From: Knoellia remsis
Lineage (GTDB): Bacteria; Actinomycetota; Actinomycetes; Actinomycetales; Dermatophilaceae
Direction: 5' to 3'
NCBI RefSeq assembly: GCF_003002895.1
Contig: NZ_PVTI01000028.1
Location: 1 to 47,327 of the forward strand
Length of the DNA stretch: 47,327 nucleotides
The notes under the pieces are model-generated. The model was not told the DNA's origin and did no database searches. It worked only from the letters and a program-made list of their open reading frames with translations. Each line of letters opens with the position of its first letter. Positions within the stretch are counted from its first letter, which is position 1. A program made the translations under genes and the position numbers. Shown one piece after another: positions 4,630-46,804 of the stretch.

Positions 4630-5059
4630 ACGCCCACGGTAGCCGCCGCCACGGGCCCCACACGGCATACGGAACTCACCGGCATACGGCCGATGACGCC
4701 GCAGACATGGAACAGCCCGCGGGCCTGCCACCCACACGACCACTGCGGTCGGGAGGAAGGCATGTGCAGGGGACGACCTGCACGGCCCGCGGGCTGCGGT
4801 GAGCTGCTGGGATTGCGCCGGTCGGCGCGACCTCGGCAGAGGTGCACGACTAGCGCGCAGTCACCTCACGCGTCCAATGAGAAATCACTTCCTGGACCAC
4901 CTCCCTTCCGTGTCCTTCGACGGTATGCCGCCCCGCGCACCTCTGCAACGGGTTATCCGCCGTGCCTCCGGACATGCAATAGGGCGCCCGCGCGGTATGC
5001 CGTGCGCGTGCCGCGGTGGTCAGACCCGCCACTGCATGTCCGCCGGTCCACCCAGGTAT
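4630..5059. ncRNA. Possible structured non-coding region with three successive inverted repeats
   Basis: This gene-free stretch upstream of arsR contains three separate inverted repeats. The first is CAGCCCGCGGGC at 4713-4724 with GCCCGCGGGCTG at 4785-4796, enclosing a nested hairpin GTGCAGG/CCTGCAC (4764-4770 and 4777-4783). The second is GCAGAGGTGC at 4836-4845 with GCACCTCTGC at 4937-4946. The third is CGGACATGCA at 4969-4978 with TGCATGTCCG at 5033-5042. Four CGGCATAC motifs lie here too. No known RNA family was recognised, and the direction is unknown. Confidence 0.3.
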
Positions 5060-5104
5060 TTGGCGGGATCGGCTGGCGTCGCTATCATCGACATATGGCG
5101 ATGA
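5060..5104 (+). promoter_or_regulatory. arsR-czcD promoter with overlapping palindromic operator; leaderless start
   Basis: A sigma-70-like promoter is visible: TTGGCG at 5060-5065, 17-base spacer, TATCAT at 5083-5088. Transcription would begin at about 5095, the A of the ArsR ATG, giving a leaderless mRNA; no ribosome binding site is seen. An imperfect 20-bp palindrome TCATCGACATATGGCGATGA (5085-5104) is centred on CATATG and overlaps the -10 and both candidate ATGs. It is a plausible metal-sensing ArsR operator. Confidence 0.6.
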
Positions 5105-5604
5105 ATCAGCAGGGACGGGCGGCCGAACCCGGCACCCCCGTCGACGAGCGCGCAGCCGCCGCCAGCGCCGCCCACCTCTTCCGGGCGCTCGGCGACCCCG
5201 GACGCATCGCGATCCTGCGTCACCTCCAGCTCGGCGAACACCGCGTCGTCGAGCTCACCGCCCACCTCGGACTCGCCCAGTCGACGGTCTCGACCCACTT
5301 GACCTGGCTGCGCGAGTGCGGCCTCGTCGAGGTCCAGCCCGTGGGTCGCTCGTCGGTCTACCGGCTGAGCCACCCCGAGCTGCTCGAGTGTCTCTTCGCC
5401 GACGCCGACCAGCTGCTCGAGGCCACCGGCCACGACGACCCGGACCACCACGACAAGCCGCAGCCGCCGAAGCGCTCGCGCACCCGCACCACGAGCCGCG
5501 CCCCGCGACGCGGCACGGCGCACGCCTCCAACACCACCCGGCCGAGCCGGCACACCACCCCCACCGACAGCACGACCACCGACACGAACCACAGGAGCTC
5601 ATGA
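5095..5604 (+). CDS. ArsR/SmtB-family metal-responsive transcriptional repressor
   Basis: This is a 169-residue winged-helix repressor of the ArsR/SmtB family, expected to release DNA on binding a transition metal. Residues 20-110 form the domain: AHLFRALGDPGRIAILRHL, then ELTAHLGLAQSTVSTHLTWLRECGLVEVQPVGRSSVYRL, which holds the recognition helix and wing. A histidine/aspartate-rich stretch (GHDDPDHHDK) follows and may bind metal. The last 50 residues are a Thr/Arg/Pro low-complexity tail longer than usual for the family. The start is set by the promoter; ATG 5101 is an alternative. The stop overlaps the start of the CDF exporter (ATGA), so the regulator very likely controls that exporter and itself through the palindrome at 5085-5104. 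Confidence 0.85.
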   Translation: MAMNQQGRAAEPGTPVDERAAAASAAHLFRALGDPGRIAILRHLQLGEHRVVELTAHLGLAQSTVSTHLTWLRECGLVEVQPVGRSSVYRLSHPELLECLFADADQLLEATGHDDPDHHDKPQPPKRSRTRTTSRAPRRGTAHASNTTRPSRHTTPTDSTTTDTNHRSS

Positions 5605-6506
5605 TGGGTAGCGGACACAGCCACAGCCACAGCGCCGCGGGGACGCACCGCTGGCGCCTCCAGCTCGCCTTCGGGCTGACCGCGACGTTCTTCGTCGTCG
5701 AGCTGGTCTTCGGCATCATCTCGCAGTCGCTGGCACTCATCAGCGACGCCGGACACATGGCCGCCGACGTCGTCGCGCTCGGCGCCGCCCTCGTCGCGAC
5801 GAGCATCGCCGGACGCAAGGACACGACCGGTCGCCGCACCTACGGCTCCTACCGCGCCGAGGTCTTCGCCTCGGGCATCGCCGTCCTCCTCATGATCGGC
5901 GTGAGCATCTACATCGCCGTCGAGGCCATTGGCCGCATCGGCGAGCAAGTCGAACCGACGAGCAGCACCATGCTCTGGGTCGGTGCCCTCGGCCTTGTCA
6001 TCAACGTCATCTCGCTGTCGCTGCTGCGCTCGGGCGCCTCCGACTCGCTCAACATCAAGGGCGCCTACCTCGAGGTCTTCGCCGACGCGCTCGGCTCGGT
6101 CGGCGTCATCGTCGCCGGCATCATGGTCGGCTGGACCGGCAACGCCTGGTGGGACACCGGCATCGCCCTCGCGATCGCGATCTTCGTCTTCTTCCGGGCC
6201 GTCGTGCTCGGCCGCGAGGTGCTGACCGTCCTCGGCCAGCACGCCCCGGCGGACCTCAAGGCTGACGAGGTCACGAACGCCCTCGCCGCCGTCCCCGGCG
6301 TGAAGGACGTCCACGACCTGCACGTCTGGACCCTGACCTCCGGCATGAACGTCGCCACCGCGCACCTGATGACGGGCAGCGACGTCGACGGTCACGACGT
6401 CCTCGACCGGGCCCGCGAGGTCATGAAGACCCAGTTCGGCGTCGAGCACGCCACCCTCCAGGTCGAGCCCGACACCCACAAGGGCTGCCAGGAGGTCGCC
6501 TGGTGA
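5601..6506 (+). CDS. Cation diffusion facilitator (CzcD-type zinc/cobalt/cadmium exporter)
   Basis: This is an inner-membrane proton antiporter that exports divalent metals such as Zn or Co. The 301-residue protein has six membrane helices between about 20 and 210 and a cytoplasmic C-terminal domain. The TM2 metal site appears as ISDAGHMAADV with His52 and Asp56. TM5 has the CzcD-style GAYLEVFADALGS, with Asp162. The start is histidine-rich (GHSHSHS), and GVKDVHDLHVWTL is the typical soluble-domain signature. A ribosome binding site AGGAG lies 5 bases upstream; ATG 5604 is an alternative. The overlapping arsR partner gives metal-inducible expression. Metal preference cannot be fixed from sequence alone. 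Confidence 0.9.
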   Translation: MMGSGHSHSHSAAGTHRWRLQLAFGLTATFFVVELVFGIISQSLALISDAGHMAADVVALGAALVATSIAGRKDTTGRRTYGSYRAEVFASGIAVLLMIGVSIYIAVEAIGRIGEQVEPTSSTMLWVGALGLVINVISLSLLRSGASDSLNIKGAYLEVFADALGSVGVIVAGIMVGWTGNAWWDTGIALAIAIFVFFRAVVLGREVLTVLGQHAPADLKADEVTNALAAVPGVKDVHDLHVWTLTSGMNVATAHLMTGSDVDGHDVLDRAREVMKTQFGVEHATLQVEPDTHKGCQEVAW

Positions 6507-6519
6507 GGTGACACCGGTC

Positions 6520-6596
6520 GACTCTGTAACTCAGTAACTTCCGGACTCTGTAACTCTGCAACTCACAGAGTTGCAGAGTCCGGAAGTTACAGAGTC
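6520..6596. terminator. Large bidirectional terminator hairpin between czcD-like gene and dedA
   Basis: The right arm (6568-6596) is the inverted complement of a split left arm (6520-6564) that contains the phrase GACTCTGTAACT twice. The stem overlaps the dedA stop codon at 6595-6597. The two genes converge here, so the hairpin can serve both. Confidence 0.7.
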
Positions 6597-7197
6597 AGAC
6601 GCTGGCGGTGCGGCGCCAGCTCCACGCCGCGACACCGGCCACGATGACGACGCCGAGCAGCACCGCCCCCACCGTGCCGAACCAGTCCACGACCTTCTCG
6701 TAGGACTTGCCCGCCCCATAACCCGCCAGCACCGAGACCACCGACCACGACCCGGCGCCGAGCAGGTCCCACAGCAGGAAGCGCGACCACGGCATACCGG
6801 ACATGCCGGCCATCGACGGCATGACCGAACGGACGAACGGCGTCCAGCGCCCCACGACGACCGCCACGCCACCACGCCGTACCAACGCCTCCTCGGCCGC
6901 TGCGAGCCGGGCCAGCCGGGCCGGCTGGGTGACCCGGCTGTGCAGCCGCGGACCGTAGCGCCTCCCCACGGCATACCCGACGTTGTCGCCGATGAGCGCG
7001 GCGGCGAGGACGACGACGACCACCCAGACGAGGGAGGTCCGGCCGAGCGCCGCAGCCGCGCCGGCAAGCACGGCGACCGTCTCACCGGGCAGCACCATGC
7101 CGACGAACAGGGCGCACTCGCCGAACACGACGAGCGCCGACACCGTGAGGATGAGCCACGGCGGCTGGTCGAGCAGCGTCCCCAGGAGGTCGGTCAC
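6595..7197 (-). CDS. DedA/SNARE-associated family membrane protein
   Basis: The 200-residue protein belongs to the DedA family of membrane transporters or scramblases, whose members include the undecaprenyl-phosphate recycling proteins. Four to five membrane segments are visible. The family motifs are FGECALFVGMVLPGE near 25-39, the acidic site in GDNVGYAVGRRYG around 70-82, and GRWTPFVRSVMPSMAGMSGM at about 115-135, which is the conserved arginine re-entrant motif. The ATG at 7197 overlaps the TGA of tadA (ATGA), so the two are translationally coupled and expressed from the tadA promoter. Which lipid substrate it moves is unknown. Confidence 0.85.
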   Translation of the reverse strand: MTDLLGTLLDQPPWLILTVSALVVFGECALFVGMVLPGETVAVLAGAAAALGRTSLVWVVVVVLAAALIGDNVGYAVGRRYGPRLHSRVTQPARLARLAAAEEALVRRGGVAVVVGRWTPFVRSVMPSMAGMSGMPWSRFLLWDLLGAGSWSVVSVLAGYGAGKSYEKVVDWFGTVGAVLLGVVIVAGVAAWSWRRTASV

Positions 7198-7694
7198 CGG
7201 CGCTCACCGAAGAAGTCGAGCAGCAGCCGCGACGCGTCCTCCTCGAGGACCCCGCCGACGACCTCGATGCGGTGCGTCGCCCGGCGGTCGCGCACGACAT
7301 CCCACACCGAGCCGGTCGCTCCGAGCTTGGGGTCCCACGCGCCGAGGACGATCCGGCCGATCCGCGCCAGCATCGCGGCGCCCGCGCACATGGGGCACGG
7401 TTCGAGGGTGACGACGAGGGTGCAGCCTTCGAGCCGCCACGAGCCCGTATGCCGTGCGGCCGCCCTGAGTGCCACGACCTCGGCGTGCGCCGTGGGGTCG
7501 GTGTCGACCTCGCGCAGGTTGCGTCCCTCGCCGATGACCTCTCCGGCGGGGTCGAGGACCACGGCCCCCACCGGGACGTCGCCCTCGCGACCGGCCCGGG
7601 AGGCGAGCTCGAGCGCGCGACGCATGGCGCCGGCATACTCCTCGCGCCGGGGCGTGGACGAGGGTCCGGAGGCTGGTCCTGCGGGACTGCTCAC
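7194..7694 (-). CDS. tadA: tRNA-specific adenosine deaminase (adenosine-34 to inosine)
   Basis: TadA deaminates A34 to inosine in tRNA-Arg(ACG), which allows decoding of CGU, CGC and CGA. The 166-residue protein has the zinc-binding and catalytic motifs HAE (His70, Glu72) and PCPMC (Cys100, Cys103), and the characteristic ending RLLLDFFGERR. Its tRNA substrate, tRNA-Arg with anticodon ACG, is encoded in the same window at 46826. The CGGCATAC octamer falls inside the gene (near 7447), where it makes an Arg-His-Thr stretch using the rare CAT codon. It is divergent from upp with only 16 bases between start codons, so the upp promoter must lie inside the tadA 5' coding region. Confidence 0.95.
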   Translation of the reverse strand: MSSPAGPASGPSSTPRREEYAGAMRRALELASRAGREGDVPVGAVVLDPAGEVIGEGRNLREVDTDPTAHAEVVALRAAARHTGSWRLEGCTLVVTLEPCPMCAGAAMLARIGRIVLGAWDPKLGATGSVWDVVRDRRATHRIEVVGGVLEEDASRLLLDFFGERR

Positions 7695-8421: not shown

Positions 8422-8492
8422 CACACGGCATACGGCGGTGGGCGCACACGGCATACGAGTCGCACACGGCATACGGAACGACACGGCATACG
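8422..8492 (+). repeat. Four-copy array of the CACACGGCATACG element
   Basis: Copies are at 8422-8434, 8445-8457, 8463-8475 and (A)CACGGCATACG at 8481-8492, all in the same orientation, separated by 5 to 10 bases of unrelated sequence. They lie in the 290-base gap after upp. They form the densest cluster of the window-wide CGGCATAC motif. Confidence 0.85.
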
Positions 8493-8817: not shown

Positions 8818-9729
8818 GTGCCGCTGGGGCGCGTCGACAAGGAGCTGGAGAGGTACCTCGTCCCCGGTGAGGAAGTCGTCGCCGTCGTCCGCCAGCACTG
8901 GTTCTCGCAGATCCGGCCGATCCTCGCGTTCGTCGGGCTGCTGTTCCTCGCGACCTTCGTCGAGGCCGAGGCGCCCCGCACCCAGGGCGGCGCCATCATC
9001 GCGAACATCTTCTGGTGGGCGGCGTTCGGGGGCGCCGGCTACCTGCTCTGGCGCTACCTCAACTGGCGGCACGACTGGTTCGTCGCGACCGACAAGCGCT
9101 TCCTCCTCTTCTACGGGTTCATCCGGCGCAAGGTCGCGATGATGCCGCTGACCAAGGTCACCGACATGACCTTCGACCGCTCGATCATGGGCCGGATCAT
9201 CGGCTACGGCACCTTCCTCCTCGAGTCGGCGGGGCAGGACCAGGCGCTCGGTCACATCGAGTACGTGCCCAACGCCGACCGTCACTACCGCGCGATCTGC
9301 ACCGTGCTCTTCGGCTCCGACGCTCCCGTCGACCCCGATGACGACTGGGACGACGGCGACGACGGGTGGGACGACGAGGGTCCAGGCGGATACGGCCCGG
9401 GCGACGGCGACCCTCGCGGGCGGGACCCGCGCGATCCTCGTGACACCTGGGACGACGGCTGGCAGGACGGGTGGGAGGACCCGCACGGGTGGCGTGAGCA
9501 CCTGGCGCGCGGCCGCGGTGGCCGCGGCGACGGCCGCGGTCGGCGAGGCGACGACGGGACCGGCGCGGACGGCATACGGAACCCTGTGCGGGAACGCCGT
9601 CCGGCACCGCCGCCGCACCGGACGTTGTATCGCAGCGCTGACCTCGTCGAGGCCTCGCGCTTGGAGGACACTGGCGAGATCCCGGTCATCCGGCCGCGGA
9701 CCAGGAGGAGAGGAAGGGGTCTGCGATGA
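8818..9729 (+). CDS. Membrane protein with bacterial PH domain (YdbS/DUF304-like) and acidic disordered tail
   Basis: The 303-residue protein has two membrane helices (about 35-55 and 60-80). A bacterial PH (bPH2/DUF304) domain follows: WFVATDKRFLLFYGFIRRKVAMMPLTKVTDMTFDRSIMGRIIGYGTFLLESAGQ is its core region, quoted here in part (roughly 85-140). After residue 165 the chain is Asp/Gly/Trp/Arg-rich and repetitive, so probably disordered. The GTG at 8818 is chosen because it precedes the first conserved block; TTG 8815 is possible. The tail includes a Gly-Ile-Arg stretch encoded by the window-wide octamer at 9570, using the rare ATA codon. The stop overlaps the ATG of the permease. Function is unknown. 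Confidence 0.75.
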   Translation: MPLGRVDKELERYLVPGEEVVAVVRQHWFSQIRPILAFVGLLFLATFVEAEAPRTQGGAIIANIFWWAAFGGAGYLLWRYLNWRHDWFVATDKRFLLFYGFIRRKVAMMPLTKVTDMTFDRSIMGRIIGYGTFLLESAGQDQALGHIEYVPNADRHYRAICTVLFGSDAPVDPDDDWDDGDDGWDDEGPGGYGPGDGDPRGRDPRDPRDTWDDGWQDGWEDPHGWREHLARGRGGRGDGRGRRGDDGTGADGIRNPVRERRPAPPPHRTLYRSADLVEASRLEDTGEIPVIRPRTRRRGRGLR

Positions 9730-11305: not shown

Positions 11306-11347
11306 CCCCCGGGCGTGCCGCCACCCTCTGACATTGCCGGTATGCCG

Positions 11348-12262
11348 TCACGCCGCCGTGAGAACAGCGCGCACCTTCCCCAGAGCGGCGCCGTTCTCGA
11401 GGTCGGCCCACGTGAGTCGGACGATGACGTAGCCCAGGCGACGCAAGGAGTCCTCGCGCTTCTTCTCCGCCCAGAGCACCGAGACGTCGTTCGACTCGTA
11501 CTTCAGTTTTCCGTCGAACTCGACGATGACGTTCGTCCCACGAACCAGAAAGTCGACGCGTGCCACGAAGTTGCCGTGGCCATCGCGAATCTCCACCTGC
11601 GGGTCCAGCTGCAGACCGCCCATCGACAGTGCCACGGCCGTCCGAGACTCGGCGACCGACTCGTGAAGGGGGTTCGTGAACCCCAACATCGCACGGCCCC
11701 GAGACCCGTTGCGGTTGCCGGCCATGGCTTCGACGGCGGCCGTGAGCTGGTCGAACGTGAGAAGTCGGTCGCGCAGGGCACAGTCCGCACTCACCACCCC
11801 TTGGGTGATGCCGTGATCCACGGTGTGCTGGGCGAGTGCGGTACTCACGTCGACGGCTGGCCCCAGTGGGGTCACGACGACGGTGTGGCCAGCGAGCTTG
11901 CGGACGCGCATGGCCTGCATTCCTGCGGATCGATGCACCGGCCGGAGGATGTTGGCCCGCGAGAGCTCGGTGCCCCAGACATCGACACCGTGTGCAATGA
12001 CAGCGCTGACACTGCACAGGACAGCGTCGGGGTAGACCAGTCGCGCACCTGCGGCTAGATGCTGATGCCACGCCGAAGGTGAGGTCTCGTCGACAAGTGC
12101 GCTCACGGCATACAGACCACGACCGGGGTGCACGAGGAGGCCGGCCTGCACAGCAGCCAACAACGCGAAGGGTGTGAGCCCGGCCTTCTCGGCCTGGCGA
12201 GTGGTGAACATGCCGTGCTGACCACGCGCGAGCTCGACCAGGGGTTCGGGAAGTTCGATCAT
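11348..12262 (-). CDS. AbiEi-antitoxin-like protein with C-terminal DUF559 (VSR-like endonuclease fold) domain
   Basis: The 304-residue protein starts with a winged-helix segment like the type IV antitoxin AbiEi: ELARGQHGMFTTRQAEKAGLTPFALLAAVQAGLLVHPGRGLYAV is its region, at about 10-50. It ends in a DUF559/VSR-like nuclease fold (about 210-300), with VARVDFLVRGTNVIVEFDGKLKYE giving the Asp...Glu-x-Asp-x-Lys active-site pattern, followed by RLGYVIVRLTWADL. Solitary genes of this kind are frequent in actinobacteria and uncharacterised; no AbiEii toxin partner is adjacent. The ATG at 12262 is chosen at the start of the conserved domain; in-frame upstream starts reach 12370. The gene is framed by two inverted 67-bp palindromic repeats, and two TTGTCCACA boxes lie in its upstream region. 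Confidence 0.7.
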   Translation of the reverse strand: MIELPEPLVELARGQHGMFTTRQAEKAGLTPFALLAAVQAGLLVHPGRGLYAVSALVDETSPSAWHQHLAAGARLVYPDAVLCSVSAVIAHGVDVWGTELSRANILRPVHRSAGMQAMRVRKLAGHTVVVTPLGPAVDVSTALAQHTVDHGITQGVVSADCALRDRLLTFDQLTAAVEAMAGNRNGSRGRAMLGFTNPLHESVAESRTAVALSMGGLQLDPQVEIRDGHGNFVARVDFLVRGTNVIVEFDGKLKYESNDVSVLWAEKKREDSLRRLGYVIVRLTWADLENGAALGKVRAVLTAA

Positions 12263-13923: not shown

Positions 13924-15495
13924 TCAGTCCTTCCGGAACATCTGGAGCATCCGGCCGGTGACCGCGAACCCTCCGAAGATGTTGATGCTGGCGACGAGGA
14001 TGGCGACGAACGCGAGCGCACGCACGACCACGTCGTCGGAGTCGATCTGGAGCAGCCCGCCGACGACGATGATGCCGCTGATGGCGTTGGTCTCGGCCAT
14101 GAGCGGCGTGTGCAGCGCGTGCGCGACATTGGAGATGACGTAGAACCCGACGATCACCGCGAGCGCGAACACCGTGAAGTGCCCGAGGAACACCGCCGGC
14201 GACGCCGACGCCACGAGCGCGAAGACGAGCGCACCGATCGCCATCGCGAGGTACTTGAGTCGCGGATCGCGTTGCTTCGCAACGGTTTCCGTATGCCGTC
14301 CGCTCGCCTCGGTGCCCGACTTCGCCGTGGCATCGGGGGCGCCTAAGCCGGTGGCGGCGGCCGACACCTGCACCGGAGGCGGCGGCCACATCACCTCGCC
14401 GTCGCGCACGACGGTCATGCCGCGCTGCACCTGGTCCTCGAGGTCGAGCGTGAGCTCGCCGTCCTTCTCCGGCGTCAAGAGCGCCAACAGGTTGACGAGG
14501 TTCGTGCCGAAGAGCTGCGACGCCTGCGTCGGCAACCGGCCGGGCAGGTCGGTGTATCCGAGGATCGTCACGCCGTTCTCGGTGACGACCTTCTCGTCAG
14601 CCACGGATCCGGCGACGTTGCCGCCGTTGGACGCAGCCATGTCGACGATGACCGAGCCCGGCTTCATCGACGCGACCATCTCCTCGGTGATGAGGCGCGG
14701 CGCCGGCTTCCCCGGGATGAGGGCGGTGGTGATGATGATGTCGACCTCGGCGGCCTGCTGCGCGTACAGCGCCTCGGCGGCGGTGTTGAAGTCCTCGCCG
14801 GTCTCCTTGGCGTAGCCGTCACTGCTGGGCGAGTCGTCGGCCCCGTCCGGGAGCTCGATGTGCAGGAAGTCCGCACCCATCGACTCGACCTGCTCGGCCA
14901 CCTCGGGGCGGGCGTCAAACGCCCGCACCACCGCGCCGAGTGACCCGGCGGTCCCGATCGCCGAGAGCCCAGCCACGCCGGCGCCGACGACGAGCACCGT
15001 CGCCGGCGGGACCTTGCCGGCGGCCGTCACCTGACCGGTGAACATCCCGCCGAACTCGTTGGCCGCCTCGATGACGGCGCGGTAGCCGCCGATGTTCGCC
15101 ATCGACGAGAGGACGTCGAGCGCCTGGGCGCGGGAGATGCGCGGCACCGCGTCCATCGCGAGCGCCGTCACCCCGCGCTCGGCGAGGGCGTCGACGAGCT
15201 CCGGCTTCAGCGCCGGCGACAACAACGAGACGAGCACCTGACCCGCGCGCAGCTTCTCGACCTCGTCGGGGCTCGGGGCGTTGATCTTGAGGATGATGTC
15301 GGTGTTCCACACCTCCGGGCCGACGACGTCGGCGCCGGCCTCGGCATACGCCTCGTCGGTGAAGCTCGACAGCTGACCGGCACCGGACTCGACGAACACG
15401 GCATACCCGAGTTTGATGAGCCGCTCCACGGTCTTGGGCGTGGCGGCGACACGCGTCTCGCCGGCCAACGACTCCTTGGGGACGCCGATGCGCAC
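13924..15495 (-). CDS. pntA: NAD(P) transhydrogenase subunit alpha (fused alpha1-alpha2 form)
   Basis: PntA carries the NAD(H)-binding domain and part of the proton channel. The 523-residue length equals the fused enterobacterial type, rather than the split PntAA/PntAB form of many actinobacteria. The N-terminus [18 protein letters not shown] and [20 protein letters not shown] with [10 protein letters not shown] define the NAD domain (about 1-375). A linker with low-complexity sequence follows, and then four membrane helices (from about 430). The start is GTG 15495, with AGGAGG eight bases upstream; longer in-frame extensions lack homology. The octamer near 14291 encodes Arg-His-Thr in the linker with a rare CAT codon. 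Confidence 0.95.
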
Positions 15496-15643: not shown

Positions 15644-16141
15644 ATGGACGACGAGGTGCTGCTGTGGCTGGTCGGGGCGCTCGCCCTCGTGGTCGTCGTG
15701 GGAGCCTTCGTGTGGGTGCTGCGGCACCGCGACGACGCCGAGCGTGTCGAGGCGGCGCACTCCTACGAGGCTCCCGAGGTCACGACCACCGGCGGGCGTG
15801 CGCCCACGGCGATGTCGTTCGGCGCGGTCGACGGCGACGATGCGGTCGACGAGACCGTGCCACTGAGCCGCCTTGGTGGCGCGGGGTGGCGCGACAGCGA
15901 CCGCTCGCTCGCGCCGGAGACCACGTCGACGCCGTATGCCGGTCAGTCCGGTCCGCGGTCCGCCGACCAGCGAACGTGGGCTGAGGACCCGCGGACGTGG
16001 GCTGAGGACCCGCAGGCCTGGGCGGACGGTGAGGCGCCGGACTCGCCCGCCGAGGGTGGCCACCACGTCGCCGTCGAGGACACCGGCGGACGTCCGGTCG
16101 CCGACGAGGAGCTCGACCGCGAGCGCGGCGGCCACTGGTGA
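15644..16141 (+). CDS. N-terminally anchored membrane protein with repetitive acidic tail
   Basis: The 165-residue protein begins with a membrane helix (residues 5-27, VLLWLVGALALVVVVGAFVWVL) and a short basic anchor, followed by a low-complexity Asp/Glu/Thr/Ala-rich tail. Within the tail the DNA repeats the phrase GCGGACGTGGGCTGAGGACCC with small changes, giving three TWAEDP-like units near 120-135. I do not recognise the family. A TACGGT hexamer seven bases upstream suggests a leaderless transcript. It converges with the large repetitive protein at 16281, which has the same design (N-terminal helix, acidic repetitive chain). The two may be functionally related. Confidence 0.6.
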   Translation: MDDEVLLWLVGALALVVVVGAFVWVLRHRDDAERVEAAHSYEAPEVTTTGGRAPTAMSFGAVDGDDAVDETVPLSRLGGAGWRDSDRSLAPETTSTPYAGQSGPRSADQRTWAEDPRTWAEDPQAWADGEAPDSPAEGGHHVAVEDTGGRPVADEELDRERGGHW

Positions 16142-19101: not shown

Positions 19102-19210
19102 CCAAACTACCGCCGACCTGCGCCGATGTGGGTTCTCGCGACGACCGATCCGGCGCGCACACGGCATACACAGGAACCTCCCGGGAGTAGGCCGTCCCGA
19201 CGCGGCCGGA

Positions 19211-20857: not shown

Positions 20858-20935
20858 CGGTGTCCTTCCGGAGGCGGATGGTGACGGGCCCACTCAACCG
20901 CGCGGACGGCATACCGGCAAGAGGGCCGGCTCCCC

Positions 20936-25913: not shown

Positions 25914-26014
25914 GGCGTCGACGCGGCATACCGGCCGAACGGCTGATCGGCCTGCGCGAGAACCGGTCGCACGGCCGATGTGCGGGCAGGGCCGGGTGAG
26001 CGAATGTTGTTGGT

Positions 26015-32299: not shown

Positions 32300-32332
32300 A
32301 CCACCGAACCTAGCCCCGCCGACCGACATCCA

Positions 32333-34051
32333 TCAGCCGAGCAGCTGCGCAAGCCAGACACCCGCGAGGGTCAGCACTCCGGCGGCGAGCAGGAACGCGC
32401 TGGGAGCCAGCCGCGACTGGGGTGCCGTGCCGTCCGGAACGGGCGGCGCGGTCTCGACCGCTCGTTGGATGGCTGCTGCGAGCGCATGGTGGTCACCGTC
32501 CGGAGGCGAGACGTCGAGGACACTCTCGTCATCGAAGATCACCAGAGCCGTCTCATCGTCCACGCGGACGTCGCGCACCGCGCCCATGGGGCTCGTCACC
32601 CGACGAAGCACCGTCACGACGTCGAAACCGTTCTGCGACACCGTCGCTCGCGAGACCACCTGCTCCAGTCCCCATTCGAAGGCGCCAGCCCCTGCGAGCA
32701 CGACGGCCACCCCGGACCAGCCCACCTCGGGGTCCCACAGCAGCCAGCCGCCGAGGGCCAGGGCAGCCACGCAGACGAGACCGCCAAGGGCACGGCGCCA
32801 CACAGGGGGGACGATGTCGACCGGGAGTGGCATGGGCTCGCTGCCCGCGGGCACCGGGTCCGACCAGTCGAGCGGGTCGTCGGGGTCCCGGTCGAAGGAG
32901 TCGAGATCGACCTGCGAGTCCGGTGGCAGGGCGATGAGCGGCCCGGTGGGGAGTCGTATGCCGTCCGGTCCCGCGAGCGCGACCCAGCCGCCGTCGCGGA
33001 CGTCTCCGATGAGCATCCCCTCGGACGGTGCCGCCACCCGACGCGCCTCGGGTGTGTCGAGCAGCAGCGTCTCGTCCACGGGGAACTCGGCGAGCCCGCG
33101 GGTGGAGTCGAGCGCGACGACGCCGACGAACTCGAGCCCGTCGGTGAAGACCCGCACCGGGATTCCCGTCGTTGCCTGACGCGACTCGAGCACACCCCGG
33201 CGCACCCGCAGCGCCACGACCCGCTCGGCGAGGAGGGCCGCGAGGAGCAACGCTCCCACGCTGATGGTGAGCCACCACGTCCGGTCCGGAGGCTCGCCCG
33301 TCGGGTGGGTCCAGCCCGGGTCTCTCGGGTCGACGCGCAGCTGCACGACCTGACCCACGGGCGACTCGTCGAAGAACTCGACCTCGACCTCGGTGGGGAA
33401 CCCCTCGGGCCGGCGGTCCAGCCGAACTCGTTGCAGGTAGTCGTCGTCTGGCGGAGAGAGGACCGTCCCCTCGACGACCTCGCTGCGCGCCTCGTGCTCG
33501 GCGTCGGAGGCCAGCGCCTGCTCATACCCCCAGAGGGCACCGCCGGACAGCAGAAGGAGTCCGAGAGCAGCGGCCGCCATGAGACGGTGCGTTCCGTCCC
33601 AGTGCAGCGGACGCGAGGGAGCGTGTGGTCGCGGCGGCAACGGCACGCTCGCCGCGGCGGCGATGGCCCGCTGCCGGGAGCGGGCGCGCAGGAGCCGTAC
33701 GGCATACGCCACGTAGGCCGCAGCGACGATCGGCCAGGCGACATTCGCCTGCCACACGTCGTCATACGCGAGGTCGATGATGGCGAACACGACGGCGCAG
33801 GCCACGGCGACGTACGGGCGCCACCAGAGCAGGACGGCCGACCCGATGCAGAAGACGATCGCCACGGAGAAGAGTGGGTCCGGGCCGCATACCGTGGGGT
33901 CGGCCGTTGAGCAGGGTTGGGTGTCGCCGAGGACCGAGAACCCGAACGCACCCGCCACCAGAGTGACGAGCACCCACCGCAACCACCGCGGCGGCATCGC
34001 CGCGACCCACTGCCGGACACGCTCGTCGTCGAGGCCGGGGCGAGTCGTCAC
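32333..34051 (-). CDS. Multi-pass membrane protein of unknown function
   Basis: The 572-residue protein has about four N-terminal helices (25-125), one near 155, a soluble beta-rich segment with FPTEVEVEFFDESPVGQVVQLRVDPRDPGW (quoted in part), another helix near 265, a second soluble domain, two helices near 430-475 and a last one at the C-terminus. The segment with EVEFFDESPVGQ resembles DUF3592-like loops, but I am not confident. GTG 34051 is the only reasonable start. Its stop is 34 bases from the YjbR-like gene, same strand, so they may be co-transcribed. Confidence 0.6.
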   Translation of the reverse strand: MTTRPGLDDERVRQWVAAMPPRWLRWVLVTLVAGAFGFSVLGDTQPCSTADPTVCGPDPLFSVAIVFCIGSAVLLWWRPYVAVACAVVFAIIDLAYDDVWQANVAWPIVAAAYVAYAVRLLRARSRQRAIAAAASVPLPPRPHAPSRPLHWDGTHRLMAAAALGLLLLSGGALWGYEQALASDAEHEARSEVVEGTVLSPPDDDYLQRVRLDRRPEGFPTEVEVEFFDESPVGQVVQLRVDPRDPGWTHPTGEPPDRTWWLTISVGALLLAALLAERVVALRVRRGVLESRQATTGIPVRVFTDGLEFVGVVALDSTRGLAEFPVDETLLLDTPEARRVAAPSEGMLIGDVRDGGWVALAGPDGIRLPTGPLIALPPDSQVDLDSFDRDPDDPLDWSDPVPAGSEPMPLPVDIVPPVWRRALGGLVCVAALALGGWLLWDPEVGWSGVAVVLAGAGAFEWGLEQVVSRATVSQNGFDVVTVLRRVTSPMGAVRDVRVDDETALVIFDDESVLDVSPPDGDHHALAAAIQRAVETAPPVPDGTAPQSRLAPSAFLLAAGVLTLAGVWLAQLLG

Positions 34052-34110: not shown

Positions 34111-34152
34111 CAGGTATGCCGCCCGCGCGTGGTGCGCGCGGACGGCATACCT
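34111..34152 (-). terminator. Terminator hairpin built from two inverted CGGCATAC motifs
   Basis: CAGGTATGCCG and CGGCATACCTG form the outer stem (11 pairs) and CCGCGCG/CGCGCGG the inner stem. It lies 46 bases after the subtilase stop. The outer stem is two copies of the window-wide octamer facing each other. Confidence 0.7.
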
Positions 34153-36423: not shown

Positions 36424-36490
36424 GGCCGGCATACGCTCTGCACACTGAGGCGCACGCGTCCCACGCTCGGCGTGGGCCGGCATACGCTCT
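36424..36490. repeat. 16-bp direct repeats around a short hairpin
   Basis: GGCCGGCATACGCTCT occurs at 36424-36439 and 36475-36490, 51 bases apart, each containing the octamer. Between them CCCACGCTCGGCGTGGG (36460-36476) forms a hairpin nearly identical to the one after pntB at 12435. Confidence 0.7.
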
Positions 36491-36594: not shown

Positions 36595-37866
36595 CTACTT
36601 GAGCTGACTCGAGCTCATCCCGAGCAGGCGGCGCGCGACGACGAGCAGCTGGATCTGCTGCGTCCCCTCGAAGATGTCGAGGATCTTGGAGTCGCGCGCC
36701 CACTTCTCGAGCAACTCGCGCTCGCCGTAGCCGGTCGCACCCGCCAGCTCGACGCAGGCGAGGGCGACGTTGACGCACGTGCGCCCCGCCTTCGCCTTGG
36801 CCATCGAGGCCTCCATCGAGTTCGGCTTGCCGTTGTCGGCCATCCACGCCGCGCGCAGGGTCAGCGCGTGCGCGGCCTGGTAGTCCGCCTCCATCTGGAG
36901 CAGCTTTGCGGCCGCGGCCGACTGCGCGTATGCCGGCCGGTCCCAGTCGACGGTGACGTCCGCCTTCGCGAGGAGCTCGGTCGTCGTGTCGAGGCAACCG
37001 CGGGTGAGGCCGAGCGCCATCGCCGCGACGAGCGGGCGGGTGTTGTCGAAGGTCTGCATCGCGCCACCGAAACCACCCTCGATCTTGATCTCCGGGTCAC
37101 CGAGCAGGTCCTCGGCGGGCACCCGGCAGTTGTCGAGGTGGAAGGCCGCGGTGTCGGAGGCGCGGATGCCGAGCTTGTGCTCGAGGCGGACGAGCTTGAG
37201 GCCGGGGTTGTCGCGGCGCACGACGAAGCTCTTGATCGCCTGCTTGCCGAGCGAACGGTCGAGCGTCGCCCACACGACGACGAGCTGGGCGCGCTCACCC
37301 GACGTCACGAAGATCTTCTCGCCGTTGAGGACGTACTCGTCGCCGTCCTTGACCGCTGTTGTGCGGATGGCCCCGGAGTCGCTGCCGGTGTCGGGCTCGG
37401 TGATCGCCATCGCGGCCCACTGGCCGGCATAGCGCGCCTTCTGCTCGTCGTTCGCGACGGCCGCGATGGCGGCGTTGCCGAGGCCCTGACGCGGGATCGA
37501 CAGGGTGAGCCCGACGTCGCCGCGGCAGGTCTCGAGAATGGAGAGCACCGACGACATGTTCGAGCCGTTGCGGACCTCCTTGGTCGCCGCGTGCTTGCGG
37601 CCGGAGCCGACGGCGGCAACCTCGTTCTCACCCTCGGTGTCGTCGCCGTCGTCGGCCGCGCGCGTCGACGTCGAGGCACCCGCGCCCTGGCCGGCGCCGG
37701 AGCTGCTCAGCCCGTCGATGACGGCGGAGAGCAGGTCGAGCTCGCGGGGGTACTCGTGCTCGGCGAGGTCGTACTTGCGCGAGATCGGGCGGAAGCCCTC
37801 CTCGGCCATGCCGCGCGCCTGCTCGATGAGGGGGCGGAACTTCTTCGGAACCTCGAGATCGATCAT
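36595..37866 (-). CDS. Acyl-CoA dehydrogenase (first of a pair)
   Basis: This FAD enzyme introduces the alpha-beta double bond into acyl-CoA. Of 423 residues, the N-terminal helical domain carries an unusual low-complexity insert (about 55-95, Ser/Gly/Thr/Asp/Glu-rich), followed by AITEPDTGSDSGAI (flavin loop), LNGEKIFVTSGERAQ, FGGAMQTFDNTRPLVAAMALG and DIFEGTQQIQLLVVARRLLG, with the probable catalytic Glu near 400. The ATG at 37866 has AAGGA eight bases upstream. It follows a second, divergent dehydrogenase on the same strand after a 96-base gap containing two octamers. The two may form a heteromeric dehydrogenase, as known for steroid side-chain FadE pairs, but no substrate can be named. 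Confidence 0.88.
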   Translation of the reverse strand: MIDLEVPKKFRPLIEQARGMAEEGFRPISRKYDLAEHEYPRELDLLSAVIDGLSSSGAGQGAGASTSTRAADDGDDTEGENEVAAVGSGRKHAATKEVRNGSNMSSVLSILETCRGDVGLTLSIPRQGLGNAAIAAVANDEQKARYAGQWAAMAITEPDTGSDSGAIRTTAVKDGDEYVLNGEKIFVTSGERAQLVVVWATLDRSLGKQAIKSFVVRRDNPGLKLVRLEHKLGIRASDTAAFHLDNCRVPAEDLLGDPEIKIEGGFGGAMQTFDNTRPLVAAMALGLTRGCLDTTTELLAKADVTVDWDRPAYAQSAAAAKLLQMEADYQAAHALTLRAAWMADNGKPNSMEASMAKAKAGRTCVNVALACVELAGATGYGERELLEKWARDSKILDIFEGTQQIQLLVVARRLLGMSSSQLK

Positions 37867-37962
37867 GGGTCCAGTCCTTGGTGTGTATGCCGTGCGCTTG
37901 CGTGGATGTCGTTGTCGCGTATGCCGGTTCGTCACCTGCGGCTGCGGCCGCCGCGACGTGGG

Positions 37963-39745: not shown

Positions 39746-40615
39746 TCAGATCCAGAGCGACGTGCAGCGGATGTAGCCGCCGCCCTTGGCGAGTTCCTCG
39801 ACCTGCGGCGTGATGACGTCCAGCCCGGCCGACTCGATGTCGGCCCGCAGCTGCGGTGCGTCCGCGCTCATGACGACGGCCGTCCCGGTGGAGACGAGGT
39901 TGCACGCCATGGCCTCGCGCGCCTCCTTCTCGGAGATCTCGATCTTCTCGACGACGTCGAGCCCGGCGAGCAGCTCACGACTCTCCGGCGTGAACGCCTC
40001 GGGGCAGTAGGCGATGAGCCCCTTGCCGTCGCCGTCGGGCTCGCGCAGGACGGCGAGGGTGAGGTCGATGTCGTACCAGTAGCTGTCCGGCCAGCCGCTC
40101 ACCTCGTTGAGCGCGGGCGTGCCATCCGCGTCGAGCAACGGGAGCGTCCACAGCTGGACACGTTCGAGACCGAAGTGCTGTGCGGCATACGCGATCGCCT
40201 GCTCGTCCGAGCGGTAGCCCGCCCCGCAGAAGACGAGGTCACCGCAGACGAGCATGTCGCCCTGACCGCTGAACCGCCACGGTTCCGGGAGCTCGTCCAC
40301 GAGGTAGCCGATCTCGCGCAGCCGGTCGCGCGCCCAGGCCTCCTCGGACTGGCGTGACGGCGGCAGCTTGGCGAGGAGGGCACGGCCGTCCCGGGCGAGG
40401 GCCCAGTTGGCGGTGTACACACCGTCCTGGCTCGTCGGCGGCGCGTCGACGGTGACGATCTCGGCGCCGGCCCGGCGCAGGGCGATCTGGATGCCCTTGT
40501 GCTCGAGCTCGGCCTTGGCGGTGTCGACCGTCTCGCCGTCCTCGTAGTACGGGTTGAGCTTGTGGTCGTTCCCGAAGTGGTGCGCCGACGACATGAGCAG
40601 CGTCGAGTTCAGCAA
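39746..40615 (-). CDS. Dimethylarginine dimethylaminohydrolase/arginine-deiminase superfamily protein
   Basis: This is a guanidino-group hydrolase of the DDAH/amidinotransferase superfamily, 289 residues. Conserved segments are TSQDGVYTANWALARDG, FSGQGDMLVCGDLVFCGAGYRSD, and NEVSGWPDSYWYDIDL in place of the usual histidine block. The C-terminal nucleophile is likely Cys284 in GGGYIRCTSLWI. It may hydrolyse methylarginine or another guanidino compound to citrulline-like products. The start is TTG 40615, supported by AGGAGG five bases upstream; ATG 40594 is the alternative. It is a single gene behind a strong hairpin (40715-40753) that ends the upstream transcript. Confidence 0.75.
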   Translation of the reverse strand: MLNSTLLMSSAHHFGNDHKLNPYYEDGETVDTAKAELEHKGIQIALRRAGAEIVTVDAPPTSQDGVYTANWALARDGRALLAKLPPSRQSEEAWARDRLREIGYLVDELPEPWRFSGQGDMLVCGDLVFCGAGYRSDEQAIAYAAQHFGLERVQLWTLPLLDADGTPALNEVSGWPDSYWYDIDLTLAVLREPDGDGKGLIAYCPEAFTPESRELLAGLDVVEKIEISEKEAREAMACNLVSTGTAVVMSADAPQLRADIESAGLDVITPQVEELAKGGGYIRCTSLWI

Positions 40616-40714: not shown

Positions 40715-40753
40715 CGGTATGCCGGCCGCGCACCGCGCGCGGCCGGCATACCG
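40715..40753 (-). terminator. Terminator hairpin built from two inverted CGGCATAC motifs
   Basis: CGGTATGCCGGCCGCGC and GCGCGGCCGGCATACCG form a 17-pair stem around a five-base loop, 12 bases after the stop of the minus-strand hydrolase gene at 40765. As at 34111, the outer stem consists of two octamers in opposite orientation. Confidence 0.75.
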
Positions 40754-41589: not shown

Positions 41590-41737
41590 GGCGTTCGTCC
41601 TCTCTGGTGAAGGGTGGGGAGCGGATCATCGCTGTGGCCTTACCCGCCTGCCGCTGCGGGCAACCTTGCGCGGGCCCGGGCGCGCACCTGGGTCACCGCC
41701 GTCGTTTGTCGCCGCCCCTCGCGGGTATGCCGTCACC

Positions 41738-43967: not shown

Positions 43968-45345
43968 TCAGAACTTCGCGTCGTCGGGCAGGGTGTCCGC
44001 CTCGTCCTGGGCGTAGTCACCCTCGCGCTTGCGGGCCGCGCGAGCGATGAGGAACAGCACGGTCCCGACGACGATGTAACCCAGAGCGATGAGCCAGGTC
44101 TGGGCGCTCTGCTGGGTGAGCAGGGCGATGCTCGCGATGAGCGCGAGGATCGAGACGATGCTCGGCGTGCGGAAGTAGTCGTGCCGCACCTCGTCCTTCT
44201 TCAGCACGAGCACCGAGATGTTCGCGGAGATGAAGACGAGCACGAGCAGCAGGACCGTCGTGTCCGCGAGGAGGCCGACGTCGCCGATGAAGCTCATGCC
44301 GATCGTCATCGCGCCGATGACGAGGATGGCGACCCAGGGGGTGCGCCGGCTGGGCGCGACCTGCCCGAAGATCTTGGGCAGCAGTCCGGCCTCGGCGAGG
44401 CCGTAGGTCGCGCGGCTCGCCATGACCATGAAGAGCAGCGCACCGTTGCCGATGGCGACGAGCGCGATGAGGGCGAACAGCCACGGCGGGAAGGACAGGC
44501 CCGAGGCGTCGATGACCTCGAGGAGCGGCCCCTCTGAGGCCGCGAGCTGGTCGGTCGGCACGACCGCACCGGCGCCGATGGCGATGAGCAGGTAGACGAC
44601 GGCGGCGGTGAGGATGGCGCCAAAGAGGGCCTTCGGGTAGGCCTTGCTCGGCTCCCTGACCTCCTCGGCCATGTTCGCCGCCGCCTCGAACCCGAGGAAG
44701 GAGAAGAACGCGGTGATCGTCGCCGCGAACACACCCTGCAGCGGGGTGACGCCCTCGGCGAAGGTCGTGAGCCGGCTCGTGTCCGCGCCGCCGTCACCGA
44801 AGACGATGGCTGCGACGACGATGATGATGATGAGGCCGGTCATCTCGATGAGCGTCGCGCAGACGTTGACCGTGAGCGACTCCTTGACGCCGCGCAGGTT
44901 GATGGCGATGAGCAGCCCGATGAAGACAATCGTCACGACGGCCGACGGCCAGTCGACGAGGGCCTTGAGGTAGTCGCCGGCGAAGGCGTTCGCGAGCGCC
45001 GCCGACGTCGTCACTCCGGAGGACAGCATGAGCCAGCCGATGAGGAAGGTGACGTACGGCTTCTTGAACGCGCGCTCGGCATACCGCGCCGCACCACCGG
45101 CGTGCGGGTACTTGGTGATGAGCTCGGCATACGTCCCCGCCGTGAGCAGGGCGAGCACGAGGGCGAGGAGGAGCGGCGCCCAGATGGCCCCACCCACGTC
45201 GTTCGCCATGGTGCCGACGAGCGTGTAGATCCCGGCACCCAAGGTGTCGCCGACGATGAAGAAGAAGAGCAGGAGAGGGGTGATCCCCCCGCTTGAGCTT
45301 CGTCGCGGTTTCGCCCGAGTGGCTGACGTCGTTGTCGATGGCCAT
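43968..45345 (-). pseudogene. APC-superfamily amino acid permease with a probable frameshift near its start
   Basis: The main frame encodes a 12-helix permease (TM1 ITPLLLFFFIVGDTLGAGIYTLVG; FFSFLGFEAAANMAEEVREP in TM6) and is intact for about 440 residues. The natural N-terminus, MAIDNDVSHSGETATKLKRG starting at ATG 45345 with GGTGG upstream, is in a different frame and joins the main frame at a G6 run (C6 on the plus strand, 45285-45290). One G fewer would restore MAIDNDVS...LKRG-ITPLL. A GTG at 45353 allows an alternative in-frame start, but its leader looks random. Sequencing error, slippage or a true mutation are possible. The transporter resembles eukaryote-like APC permeases of actinobacteria. 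Confidence 0.7.
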
Positions 45346-45518
45346 GGACCCACCGTTTCACGCTCGGCGCGTGGGCGCCACAGTCAGGCGCCCCGTCGGC
45401 GTGCCGTGACCTGCGGTTTCGTATGCCGTCCGCCCGCCCGCGCATCCCGGCGCACCCGGGCGGGTACCCGGTGTCGTGAGGGCCCGGACCGGGTCCCGAC
45501 CCGGCACGAAGGAGAGTC

Positions 45519-45996: not shown

Positions 45997-46025
45997 AGGC
46001 CCCGACCGGCATACGGTCGGGGCCT
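45997..46025 (+). terminator. Terminator hairpin with GGCATAC loop (copy 1)
   Basis: AGGCCCCGACC and GGTCGGGGCCT pair around the heptamer GGCATAC. It lies 35 bases after the DUF2383 stop, and an almost identical hairpin occurs at 46774. Confidence 0.75.
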
Positions 46026-46056
46026 GTGTCGTCGGTGTCCGAGTGGGGAATCCGCG

Positions 46057-46668
46057 TCAGGAGAGCAGGTCCTTCATCGTCGCGATCTCCTTGGTCTGCG
46101 AGTCGACGATGGCGTTCGCGAGCTTCTCGACGTCGGGGTTCTTCGTCGTCTTCAGGACGTCCTGCGCCATGGTGACCGCACCCTCGTGGTGCTCGATCAT
46201 CATGGTGAGCCACTGCCTGTCGAACGCCGGTCCGGTGGCCTTCGATAGCGCAGCCATGTCCTCCTTGCTCATCATCCCGCTCATGTCGTGGTCCATCGGC
46301 GCCTCTGCGCGCGCACCCCACGACTCGAGCCAGCCGCGCATCTGCTCGATCTCGGGACCCTGCGCAGCGCGGATGTCGCCCGCCAGGGCCTTCACCTCGG
46401 CCGACGCGCCCGCGGTGTCCTTGAGGGCGAGGTCGGCCATCTCGATCGCCTGCTGGTGGTGCGGGATCATCATCTGCGCGAACATCACGTCGCCCTGGTC
46501 GGCGGCGGACGCCGAAGCGCCCGGCGAGCTGGACCCGGACGGTGACATCGACATGCCGGGCATCGACGAGTCCGAGTCGTCCGAGCCACATCCGGCGAGG
46601 ACGGCGAGCGTGAGGGCAGCGGTGACGCCGACGGTGGCGCGACGGGCGATGGCATGGGGACGAGGCAC
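46057..46668 (-). CDS. DUF305 lipoprotein (copper-linked)
   Basis: This is a 203-residue lipoprotein with lipobox LAVLAGC (Cys27), a Ser/Met/Gly-rich spacer (SSMPGMSMSP), and a DUF305 four-helix domain containing two His-His pairs: MIPHHQQAIEMADLAL and MIEHHEGAVTMAQDVL. Met-rich (MDHDMSGMMSKEDMA) segments suggest copper or silver binding. DUF305 genes are often in copper-resistance loci. The start is GTG 46668 with AGGGAG six bases upstream. A palindrome resembling a CsoR-type copper operator lies in its promoter (46703-46720). Confidence 0.85.
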   Translation of the reverse strand: MPRPHAIARRATVGVTAALTLAVLAGCGSDDSDSSMPGMSMSPSGSSSPGASASAADQGDVMFAQMMIPHHQQAIEMADLALKDTAGASAEVKALAGDIRAAQGPEIEQMRGWLESWGARAEAPMDHDMSGMMSKEDMAALSKATGPAFDRQWLTMMIEHHEGAVTMAQDVLKTTKNPDVEKLANAIVDSQTKEIATMKDLLS

Positions 46669-46702
46669 GGTGAGCTCCCTGAGGTGTCGAGATCGGTCGC
46701 CA

Positions 46703-46720
46703 TATACACTACCCGGGTAT
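46703..46720 (-). promoter_or_regulatory. Promoter of the DUF305 gene with CsoR-like palindrome
   Basis: On the minus strand ATACCCGGGTAGTGTATAT contains the palindrome TACCCGGGTA (46710-46719), similar to copper-responsive CsoR-type sites, and a -10-like GTATAT (46703-46708). Transcription would begin about 28 bases before the GTG start. The assignment rests on resemblance and on the copper link of DUF305 proteins. Confidence 0.45.
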
Positions 46721-46773
46721 CCCACTCACCGCACTCGCACCGATGCCGGCCTGGCGCGAGCGGGCACGACAGA

Positions 46774-46804
46774 AAGGCCCCGACCGGCATACGGTCGGGG
46801 CCTT
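46774..46804. terminator. Terminator hairpin with GGCATAC loop (copy 2)
   Basis: AAGGCCCCGACC and GGTCGGGGCCTT pair around GGCATAC, followed by TCTCCTCTGT on the plus strand. On the minus strand it lies just beyond the tRNA-Arg 3' end and should end that transcript. It matches the hairpin at 45997 except for one extra pair. Confidence 0.75.

Follow-up and report, generated by a model that had tools for sequence, protein, structure and literature searches.

We describe here the octamer CGGCATAC, which recurs along a 47,327-nucleotide stretch of the actinobacterium Knoellia remsis (family Dermatophilaceae; RefSeq assembly GCF_003002895.1, contig NZ_PVTI01000028.1, positions 1 to 47,327 of the forward strand), referred to below as the window. 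Besides many other genes, the window carries those of a deaminase, a transhydrogenase and an aminotransferase. The octamer is non-palindromic, as by inspection it differs from its own reverse complement. There are 55 exact copies, 32 on the plus and 23 on the minus strand, the first beginning at 4663 and the last lying at 46785-46792, while 0.76 would be expected and the maximum among 100 dinucleotide shuffles was 4. Sequence comparisons make a strong case that the octamer would work like a DNA uptake sequence (DUS), that is, a tag for recognition of self DNA.

A preliminary description of the window had likened the octamer to such sequences and counted about 55 copies where fewer than two would arise by chance, which agrees with our figures; of the two orientations, which it gave as 32 and 25, the former is correct and the latter is 23. 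The longer form that it ascribed to most copies is real, but [AC]CGGCATACG is present at 24 of the 55, which makes "most" slightly too strong.

Copies of the octamer in the window

All rows are exact copies of CGGCATAC, given as coordinates, strand and location; "gene" is followed by its coordinates and strand.

4663..4670, +, intergenic
4680..4687, +, intergenic
4923..4930, -, intergenic
4995..5002, -, intergenic
6790..6797, +, gene 6595-7197(-)
6969..6976, +, gene 6595-7197(-), Tyr-Ala frame
7447..7454, -, deaminase gene 7194-7625(-), Arg-His-Thr frame
7631..7638, +, intergenic
8426..8433, +, intergenic, first of four direct copies
8449..8456, +, intergenic, second of four direct copies
8467..8474, +, intergenic, third of four direct copies
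8484..8491, +, intergenic, fourth of four direct copies
9570..9577, +, gene 8818-9729(+), Gly-Ile-Arg frame
11340..11347, -, intergenic
12106..12113, +, intergenic
14291..14298, -, transhydrogenase gene 13924-15495(-), Arg-His-Thr frame
15342..15349, +, gene 13924-15495(-), Tyr-Ala frame
15399..15406, +, gene 13924-15495(-), Tyr-Ala frame
15934..15941, -, gene 15644-16141(+), Tyr-Ala frame
17982..17989, -, gene 16281-19094(-), Ala-Tyr frame
19162..19169, +, intergenic
20519..20526, -, gene 19211-20857(-), Ala-Tyr frame
20683..20690, +, gene 19211-20857(-), Tyr-Ala frame
20907..20914, +, intergenic
22402..22409, +, gene 22347-22835(+), Ala-Tyr frame
22525..22532, -, gene 22347-22835(+)
23260..23267, -, gene 22880-23341(+), Tyr-Ala frame
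23381..23388, -, intergenic
23723..23730, +, gene 23512-24102(+), Ala-Tyr frame
23838..23845, -, gene 23512-24102(+), Tyr-Ala frame
25924..25931, +, intergenic
26656..26663, -, gene 26015-27013(+), Tyr-Ala frame
28817..28824, +, intergenic
29532..29539, -, gene 28846-30075(+), Tyr-Ala frame
30169..30176, -, intergenic
30411..30418, +, gene 30224-30502(+), Ala-Tyr frame
32294..32301, +, intergenic
32956..32963, -, gene 32333-33865(-), Gly-Ile-Arg frame
33700..33707, +, gene 32333-33865(-), Tyr-Ala frame
34114..34121, -, intergenic, hairpin left arm (RNA fold z -8.7)
34143..34150, +, intergenic, right arm of the hairpin with 34114..34121
36427..36434, +, intergenic
36478..36485, +, intergenic
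36928..36935, -, gene 36595-37866(-), Ala-Tyr frame
37885..37892, -, intergenic
37919..37926, -, intergenic
40183..40190, +, gene 39746-40615(-), Tyr-Ala frame
40717..40724, -, intergenic, hairpin left arm (RNA fold z -5.7)
40744..40751, +, intergenic, right arm of the hairpin with 40717..40724
41725..41732, -, intergenic
45077..45084, +, gene 43968-45242(-), Tyr-Ala frame
45125..45132, +, gene 43968-45242(-), Tyr-Ala frame
45421..45428, -, intergenic
46007..46014, +, intergenic
46785..46792, +, intergenic

Excess in the whole genome

Throughout the genome (3,573,222 bases in 62 contigs) the octamer is found 3277 times, 1655 forward and 1622 reverse, while its letters read backward, without complementing, give 276 copies. 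For closer study we used a sample of 447 kb, made up of the window and twenty 20-kb stretches of the same genome. It contains 454 copies, while an expectation computed after masking of the motif is 4.2, and CGGCATAC ranks first of all octamers there under a third-order Markov model and also under a synonymous-codon null. The count against genomic background, suggested as a check in the preliminary description, is thus in favour of a true excess.

Counts of this kind could be an artefact of codon or composition bias, or of the Illumina P7 adapter, which includes CGGCATAC; CGGCGTAC, a related octamer treated below, is also somewhat common in other actinobacteria (17 vs 9.2 in one control family). 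The adapter extension ACGGCATACGAGAT, however, occurs once and AAGACGGCATACG never in the 447 kb, which rules out an adapter or assembly artefact for Knoellia. Copies are moreover conserved between species, and codon bias is ruled out by synonymous shuffles, which fail to give the observed counts in Knoellia and in Nocardioidaceae alike. We attach practically no weight to this explanation.

Copies inside genes and on the two strands

Within called genes of the sample 279 copies were found, about 19-fold more than in 20 synonymous-codon shuffles that kept the proteins and the codon pool (mean 14.9, maximum 26). Each of the six frame and orientation classes is enriched, from 3 vs 0.1 in the lowest to 132 vs 6.0 in the highest, and therefore the constraint acts on DNA, as had been proposed, and not on protein. 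The reading frames named in the preliminary description were as stated, with Gly-Ile-Arg at 9570 and 32956, Arg-His-Thr in the deaminase (7447) and transhydrogenase (14291) genes and Ala-Tyr or Tyr-Ala at 22402, 23260 and 26656, but the copies are not spread evenly among frames: 231 of the 279 lie in the two that read Ala-Tyr or Tyr-Ala. With genes called by our own hexamer script and no published gene caller, density is about four times higher outside called genes than inside them (2.88 vs 0.72 per kb), and the lowest genic density, 0.26 per kb, belongs to the genes with the highest GC content at third codon positions.

The strands are balanced. The twenty stretches outside the window hold 200 plus and 199 minus copies, and in G002, a congener assembled as a single contig of 4.16 Mb, twenty stretches taken at even intervals gave 125 copies on the leading and 126 on the lagging strand, the replication halves being separated by GC skew and position and the strand totals summed by hand. 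Tests of balance returned p 0.58 for the genome-wide 1655 and 1622 copies and p 1.0 for the congener, which upholds the earlier statement that the octamer is not strand-polar. Chi, the FtsK-orienting polar sequences (KOPS) and the architecture-imparting octamers (AIMS) are over-represented genome-wide and skewed to the leading strand. An octamer as abundant as CGGCATAC might be taken for such a polar chromosome signal, since genome-wide over-representation is typical of them, but the leading-strand bias is missing in both comparisons. Polar versions are refuted by these balanced counts, and we regard a signal of this kind as highly improbable.

Pairs, hairpins and flanks

Among 442 pairs of neighbouring copies, 48 are at most 60 bp apart, with 26 in inverted and 22 in direct orientation. 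Three stretches of the window were folded as RNA: the two that hold an inverted pair form strong hairpins, and the one with four direct copies (8426-8491) does not. Inverted pairs, which the preliminary description had placed in terminators, do exist, but they are hardly commoner than direct ones.

Dispersed hairpins, terminators or elements like repetitive extragenic palindromes or miniature inverted-repeat transposable elements, spread by transposition, would account for the 26 inverted among 48 close pairs, for two strong hairpins among the three folded stretches and for the 44 of 175 intergenic copies that share a flank (at least 16 of 20 positions) with another copy. Such an origin does not suit the close pairs being only 48 of 442, nor the 279 of 454 copies that lie in genes, mostly in tolerated frames. 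Among 38,772 pairs of genic copies only 6 left and 2 right flanks match at the same threshold, so a mobile-repeat origin is refuted for the genic majority. The possibility that the copies are remnants of one longer repeat, which had been raised as a check, thus fails for genic copies and holds in part for intergenic ones; as a general explanation, transposed repeats are very unlikely.

Conservation and distribution among relatives

When sites were compared with ten relatives, the octamer was intact in 43 of 78 pairwise genic comparisons (24-30% for other 8-mers) and in 22 of 33 intergenic ones (at most 14% for other 8-mers), the comparisons being mutually non-independent. Orthologous sites are thus conserved above control 8-mers, another of the checks proposed at the outset. 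For the aminotransferase gene at 28846-30072 the six best loci, with 93-95% identity, belong to Knoellia species and to one genome titled Janibacter sp. HTCC2649.

All eight congeners carry the octamer, with 1971-2982 copies each, and 12 of the 27 other genera of the family have at least 0.2 per kb. It is at background in 22 genomes from other families of the same order (at most 167 copies). When 296 genomes, our own included, were drawn evenly from the class, only members of the family were high, three of the five others among them, and the remaining 290 genomes, all of other families, are at about 0.05 per kb or less as read from the table.

Dialects within the family

Genera poor in CGGCATAC were sampled de novo for enriched octamers, and several proved to have a variant of their own. 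CGGCATTC occurs 75 times in 87 kb of G020 (3.0 expected), and CGGCATCC 75 times in 100 kb of G024 (7.7 expected) and 57 times in 60 kb of G033 (5.7 expected). The pattern CGGCATYC covering both reaches 3647, 3916 and 3984 copies per whole genome in G020, G024 and G033, as compared with about 350-1350 in the family's remaining 25 genera, in raw counts uncorrected for genome size. Two Flexivirga loci, as well as G011 and G012, have the dialect CG[GTC]CATAC. In G030 CGNCGTAC is abundant, with CGGCGTAC at 33 vs 6.5 and among the top six octamers alongside a local repeat, and G031 has GGCGTACG at 46 vs 8.2. Weaker signals were noted for CGGCATCC in G009 (29 vs 7.6) and for CGGCGTAC and CGCATACC in G026 and G027. 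The dialects seen among related genera, namely CGGCATCC, CGGCATTC, CG[GTC]CATAC, CGNCGTAC and the weaker CGCATACC, are about one letter apart from genus to genus. Eight genera (G010, G014, G016, G017, G018, G021, G022, G035) showed no motif in the 20-80 kb sampled from each.

Two further observations concern this material. G055, of the same order and family f19, has 1697 CGGCATYC in 3.8 Mb, the most among the 22 genomes that represent other families of this order, the next having 1189. The Janibacter loci L026, L029, L030, L031, L040 and L052, together with L012 from Marihabitans, are without CGGCATAC and rich in an unrelated octamer, CCCCTTCG (in Janibacter, 83 vs 12.3 over 124 kb), which may be an independent signal of like kind.

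A related motif in other families

Among 46 named genomes, CGGCGTAC is present in 471-3653 copies in 18 titled Nocardioides, Marmoricola, Nocardioidaceae or Enemella and in one unassigned metagenome-assembled genome (MAG; AUS1), and in 91-865 copies in the other 27, the ranges overlapping only on account of one MAG at 471. In 30 pooled loci of Nocardioidaceae type no octamer ranks above it when judged against the codon null (341 vs 88.5), with CGACGTAC, CGCCGTAC and CGTCGTAC high as well; every frame class is enriched, and intergenic copies number 40 vs 5.9. In contrast to the Knoellia motif, its density is no higher between genes than within them (0.41 intergenic vs 0.66 genic per kb). CGGCGTAC varies widely across the 296-genome draw, even inside one family (f45). 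Relative to codon expectation, single-genome samples of other families had it 1.2-1.9-fold enriched in f37, f35 and f22, 2.1-fold in f53 (11 vs 5.2) and about threefold in f29 and f32; sample G185, at 8.7 kb, was too small and was left out of this comparison. Judged by these sequences, CGNCGTAC in Nocardioidaceae and Enemella is probably a related motif, weaker and broader than that of Knoellia. In 23 of the Nocardioidaceae-type loci among L033-L079, two or three copies of GTTTCACGTGAAAC, which we take to resemble the chromosome partition site parS, stand near an aminotransferase gene.

Transformation genes and a candidate reader

The genome of K. remsis has a comEA-comEC operon (L129), whose ComEA combines SLBB and helix-hairpin-helix domains, and a tad cluster (L199) adjoining a release-factor gene (PF03462/PF00472). 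The cluster consists of tadA (T2SSE), tadB and tadC (T2SSF), a gene for a 71-residue protein without a Pfam family match, TadE, a TadF-like protein that we call TadE2, and a TadG-like protein (PF13400). TadE2 scores just below the cut-off of PF07811 and has two cysteines invariant across nine aligned sequences. Its AlphaFold2 model (mean predicted local distance difference test score 85) is pilin-like, with a long N-terminal helix followed by a helix and three strands, the cysteine loop lying between strands 1 and 2.

Of the 20 motif-bearing genera 19 have TadE2 at 186 bits or more, as do 3 of the 8 motif-less genera (Fisher p 0.003, post hoc and with kinship ignored). Here our own genus was counted once, as TadE2-positive, although within it seven of nine genomes have the protein; the dialects of G009, G030 and G031 were added, and the weak G026 and G027 were scored as bearing. 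As motif classes were refined after TadE2 was known, all p values for this association are descriptive. The first table, with the ambiguous G026 and G027 omitted, stood at 14 of 14 vs 6 of 12 (p 0.004), and at 14 of 15 vs 6 of 11 (p 0.054) after G033 was found to bear a motif. Leaving the weak G009, G026 and G027 out of the final table gives 16 of 17 vs 3 of 8 (p 0.006), and scoring them as lacking gives 16 of 17 vs 6 of 11 (p 0.022). In a tree of 20 TadE2 sequences, three CGTAC-type and the two CGNCATAC genomes share a clade with G034 (CGGCATAC) and G018 (no motif), with support 93/98 and no formal test.

Other candidates were rejected as discriminating genes, the search covering 58 genomes: the Flp pilin PF04964 (20 of 58, our own genome not among them), the type IV pilin PF07963 (12 of 58, and none of the nine genomes of the genus), TadE PF07811 (57 of 58) and, as a separate discriminator in an alignment search, the TadG-like protein (49 of 58, with a pattern like that of TadE2).

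Comparison with known systems

To our knowledge, DNA self-recognition tags have been described so far only from two Gram-negative families. The DUS of Neisseria resembles the present octamer in being a short non-palindromic motif with many copies and with dialects a few nucleotides apart within the family; motif, phylum and pilus are different, the candidate reader here being a minor pilin of Tad/Flp type. For Neisseria, dialects, the receptor ComP and an essential CTG core are documented (PMC12616744). This CTG is absent from CGGCATAC, and because of that the GCCGTC which extended Knoellia copies, on the other strand, have in common with the Neisseria DUS is probably a coincidence.

The uptake signal sequences (USS) of Pasteurellaceae, AAGTGCGGT and ACAAGCGGT, are likewise short motifs strongly enriched in genomes, and they come in two types in the family. 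Haemophilus USS have AT-rich flanks, whereas intergenic copies here have a GC-rich flank on the 5' side, approximately GGNGNGCGGA. HIP1, the palindromic octamer GCGATCGC of cyanobacteria, equally attains a very high genome density, but CGGCATAC is non-palindromic and changes by dialect.

Transformation of Micrococcus luteus by Flp/Tad pili offers a likeness in machinery, as it combines comEA-comEC with the tad order tadA-B-C-(flp)-tadE/F-tadG. According to PMC4322843, it needs both tad clusters and ComEC, and the gene order is that of L199; the words "uptake sequence" do not occur in its main text. By eye, the N-terminus of TadE2 resembles that of M. luteus TadF (PMC6370729). Judged by titles and beginnings of abstracts, no report of an uptake sequence in actinobacteria appeared among the literature matches listed.

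Interpretation

Nearly every sequence-level property of a DUS that was tested was found: excess throughout the genome on both strands, no polarity, selection at the DNA level, intergenic enrichment, conserved sites, restriction to the family and dialects. A clear preference for inverted pairs was not seen. A comEA-comEC operon and a tad locus are present too, the latter with a split tadA in this strain. The likeness drawn in the preliminary description is supported in this respect, and the related motif CGNCGTAC of Nocardioidaceae and Enemella extends it. On these grounds CGGCATAC is likely to be the core of a convergent DUS, with a putative uptake preference, in Knoellia and many other Dermatophilaceae. 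We infer that natural transformation takes place in these bacteria, or did so in their recent ancestors, and that motif-bearing DNA is taken up preferentially. TadE2 is the best candidate for the protein reading the motif, a task probably performed by a Tad pilus in Actinomycetota.

The mechanism that we propose runs as follows. Free DNA carrying CGGCATAC would be bound preferentially by a Tad/Flp pilin, of which the TadF-like minor pilin TadE2 is the best candidate, drawn in and passed through ComEA and ComEC as a single strand, which would recombine with the homologous chromosome. Since recombining DNA would come preferentially from motif-bearing fragments, copies born by mutation would be favoured and lost copies restored. 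The motif could thereby build up to about one per kb where it is tolerated, that is, between genes and, inside them, mainly as Ala-Tyr or Tyr-Ala. A change in receptor specificity would shift the entire genome to a new dialect. More broadly, and with somewhat less than even confidence, one may envisage a single ancient uptake-sequence system, CGNC[A/G]TAC with one-letter dialects, across at least two orders (Dermatophilaceae; Nocardioidaceae/Enemella; perhaps two more families), read by a TadF-like tip pilin of the Tad/Flp pilus whose specificity drifted while genomes were rewritten; recognition of self DNA would then be seen for the first time in a Gram-positive group, and for the first time by way of a Tad pilus.

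Several findings weigh against a DUS read by this pilus. The tadA gene of our own genome is split, residues 83-381 (congener numbering) and 64-82 being about 6.8 kb apart with two tyrosine-recombinase genes between them (insert at L199:13153-19944, G000:C3; no motif copy lies past base 12032 of L199). In the congener G005 (L218) tadA is incomplete within the 20 kb examined, where only residues 196-381 were found, and the congeners G003 and G008, as well as G033 from another genus, lack TadE2 and keep the motif. In at least four of the nine Knoellia genomes, all of which bear the motif, the tad cluster appears to be broken or absent, and therefore a DUS requires recent losses; competence would have been lost lately in these genomes and the motif would persist. 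Conversely, G010, G018 and G035 have a strong TadE2 and no motif in samples of 40-80 kb, TadE2-like proteins with lower scores (at most 171 bits) are found in most motif-less genomes of other families, and a match at E <= 0.001 is present in 50 of the 58 genomes overall. ComEC, present in 57 of 58 genomes including our own, fails as a discriminating gene, and a fold search with the TadE2 model returned no solved structure at E <= 0.001. On the side of the motif, one-mismatch variants are in modest excess (336 vs 236 expected), inverted pairs are without clear preference over direct ones, and a general depletion in foreign genes was not seen, the least typical fifth of genes having 0.81 copies per kb. 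No data on uptake or transformation in Dermatophilaceae appeared among the literature matches listed.

Some of these findings would also suit a site that an abundant protein, for instance a methyltransferase or a nucleoid protein, binds or modifies, and that is maintained because chromosome structure, repair or regulation depends on it. Any constraint at the DNA level accounts for the excess, the strand balance and the conserved sites, and the persistence of the motif where the tad locus has been lost or split would be natural. A methyltransferase is suspected behind the cyanobacterial HIP1 octamer as well. One-letter changes between sister genera and an association with a pilus gene are nevertheless unlike such sites, and each change of dialect would require thousands of sites to be rewritten without a drive. 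We know of no class of protein site that is a non-palindromic octamer, present once per kb on both strands, shifting by one letter between sister genera and linked to a pilus gene. This alternative appears unlikely, though less so than the other rivals.

Should the octamer indeed be a DUS, it would be a third case and a Gram-positive one, with another motif and another pilus, which would show that such a device has arisen more than once and does not depend on an outer membrane. Many environmental actinobacteria would be naturally transformable now or would have been so recently, and placing the correct octamer on DNA would provide a handle for transforming them. The dialects would form a graded series in which co-evolution of receptor and signal could be watched.

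Other features of the window and the genome

The first part of the window is free of copies:

1..4662, no strand, copy-free stretch with genes for an AAA ATPase and the C-terminal domain of a Type ISP restriction enzyme; lower GC, 0.636 over bases 1-4000

At genome density, the chance of finding no CGGCATAC there is 0.014, and the stretch is probably foreign DNA. At the opposite end, positions 47108-47326 hold the start of a Mutator-family transposase, and the contig probably breaks at an insertion element.

Two short dispersed repeats were also noted. The first consists of intergenic units of about 66-75 bp in tandem, which contain the palindrome CCAATTGG and in many cases one CGGCATAC. It was found at contig ends and inside contig C1; about 25 CCAATTGG sites are present in the 447 kb (50 over two strands vs 1.3 expected). 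It was located at:

L091:47-520, CCAATTGG tandem repeat
L092:287-430, CCAATTGG tandem repeat
C1 (L085), around 93217-93370, CCAATTGG tandem repeat

The second is built around CGACTGATTGC, for example at 27440, 124475 and 163997 of C1 and at 6049 of L092; its ACTGATTGC occurs 33 times in the 447 kb against 0.1 expected, and 11 of the 14 shown are intergenic.

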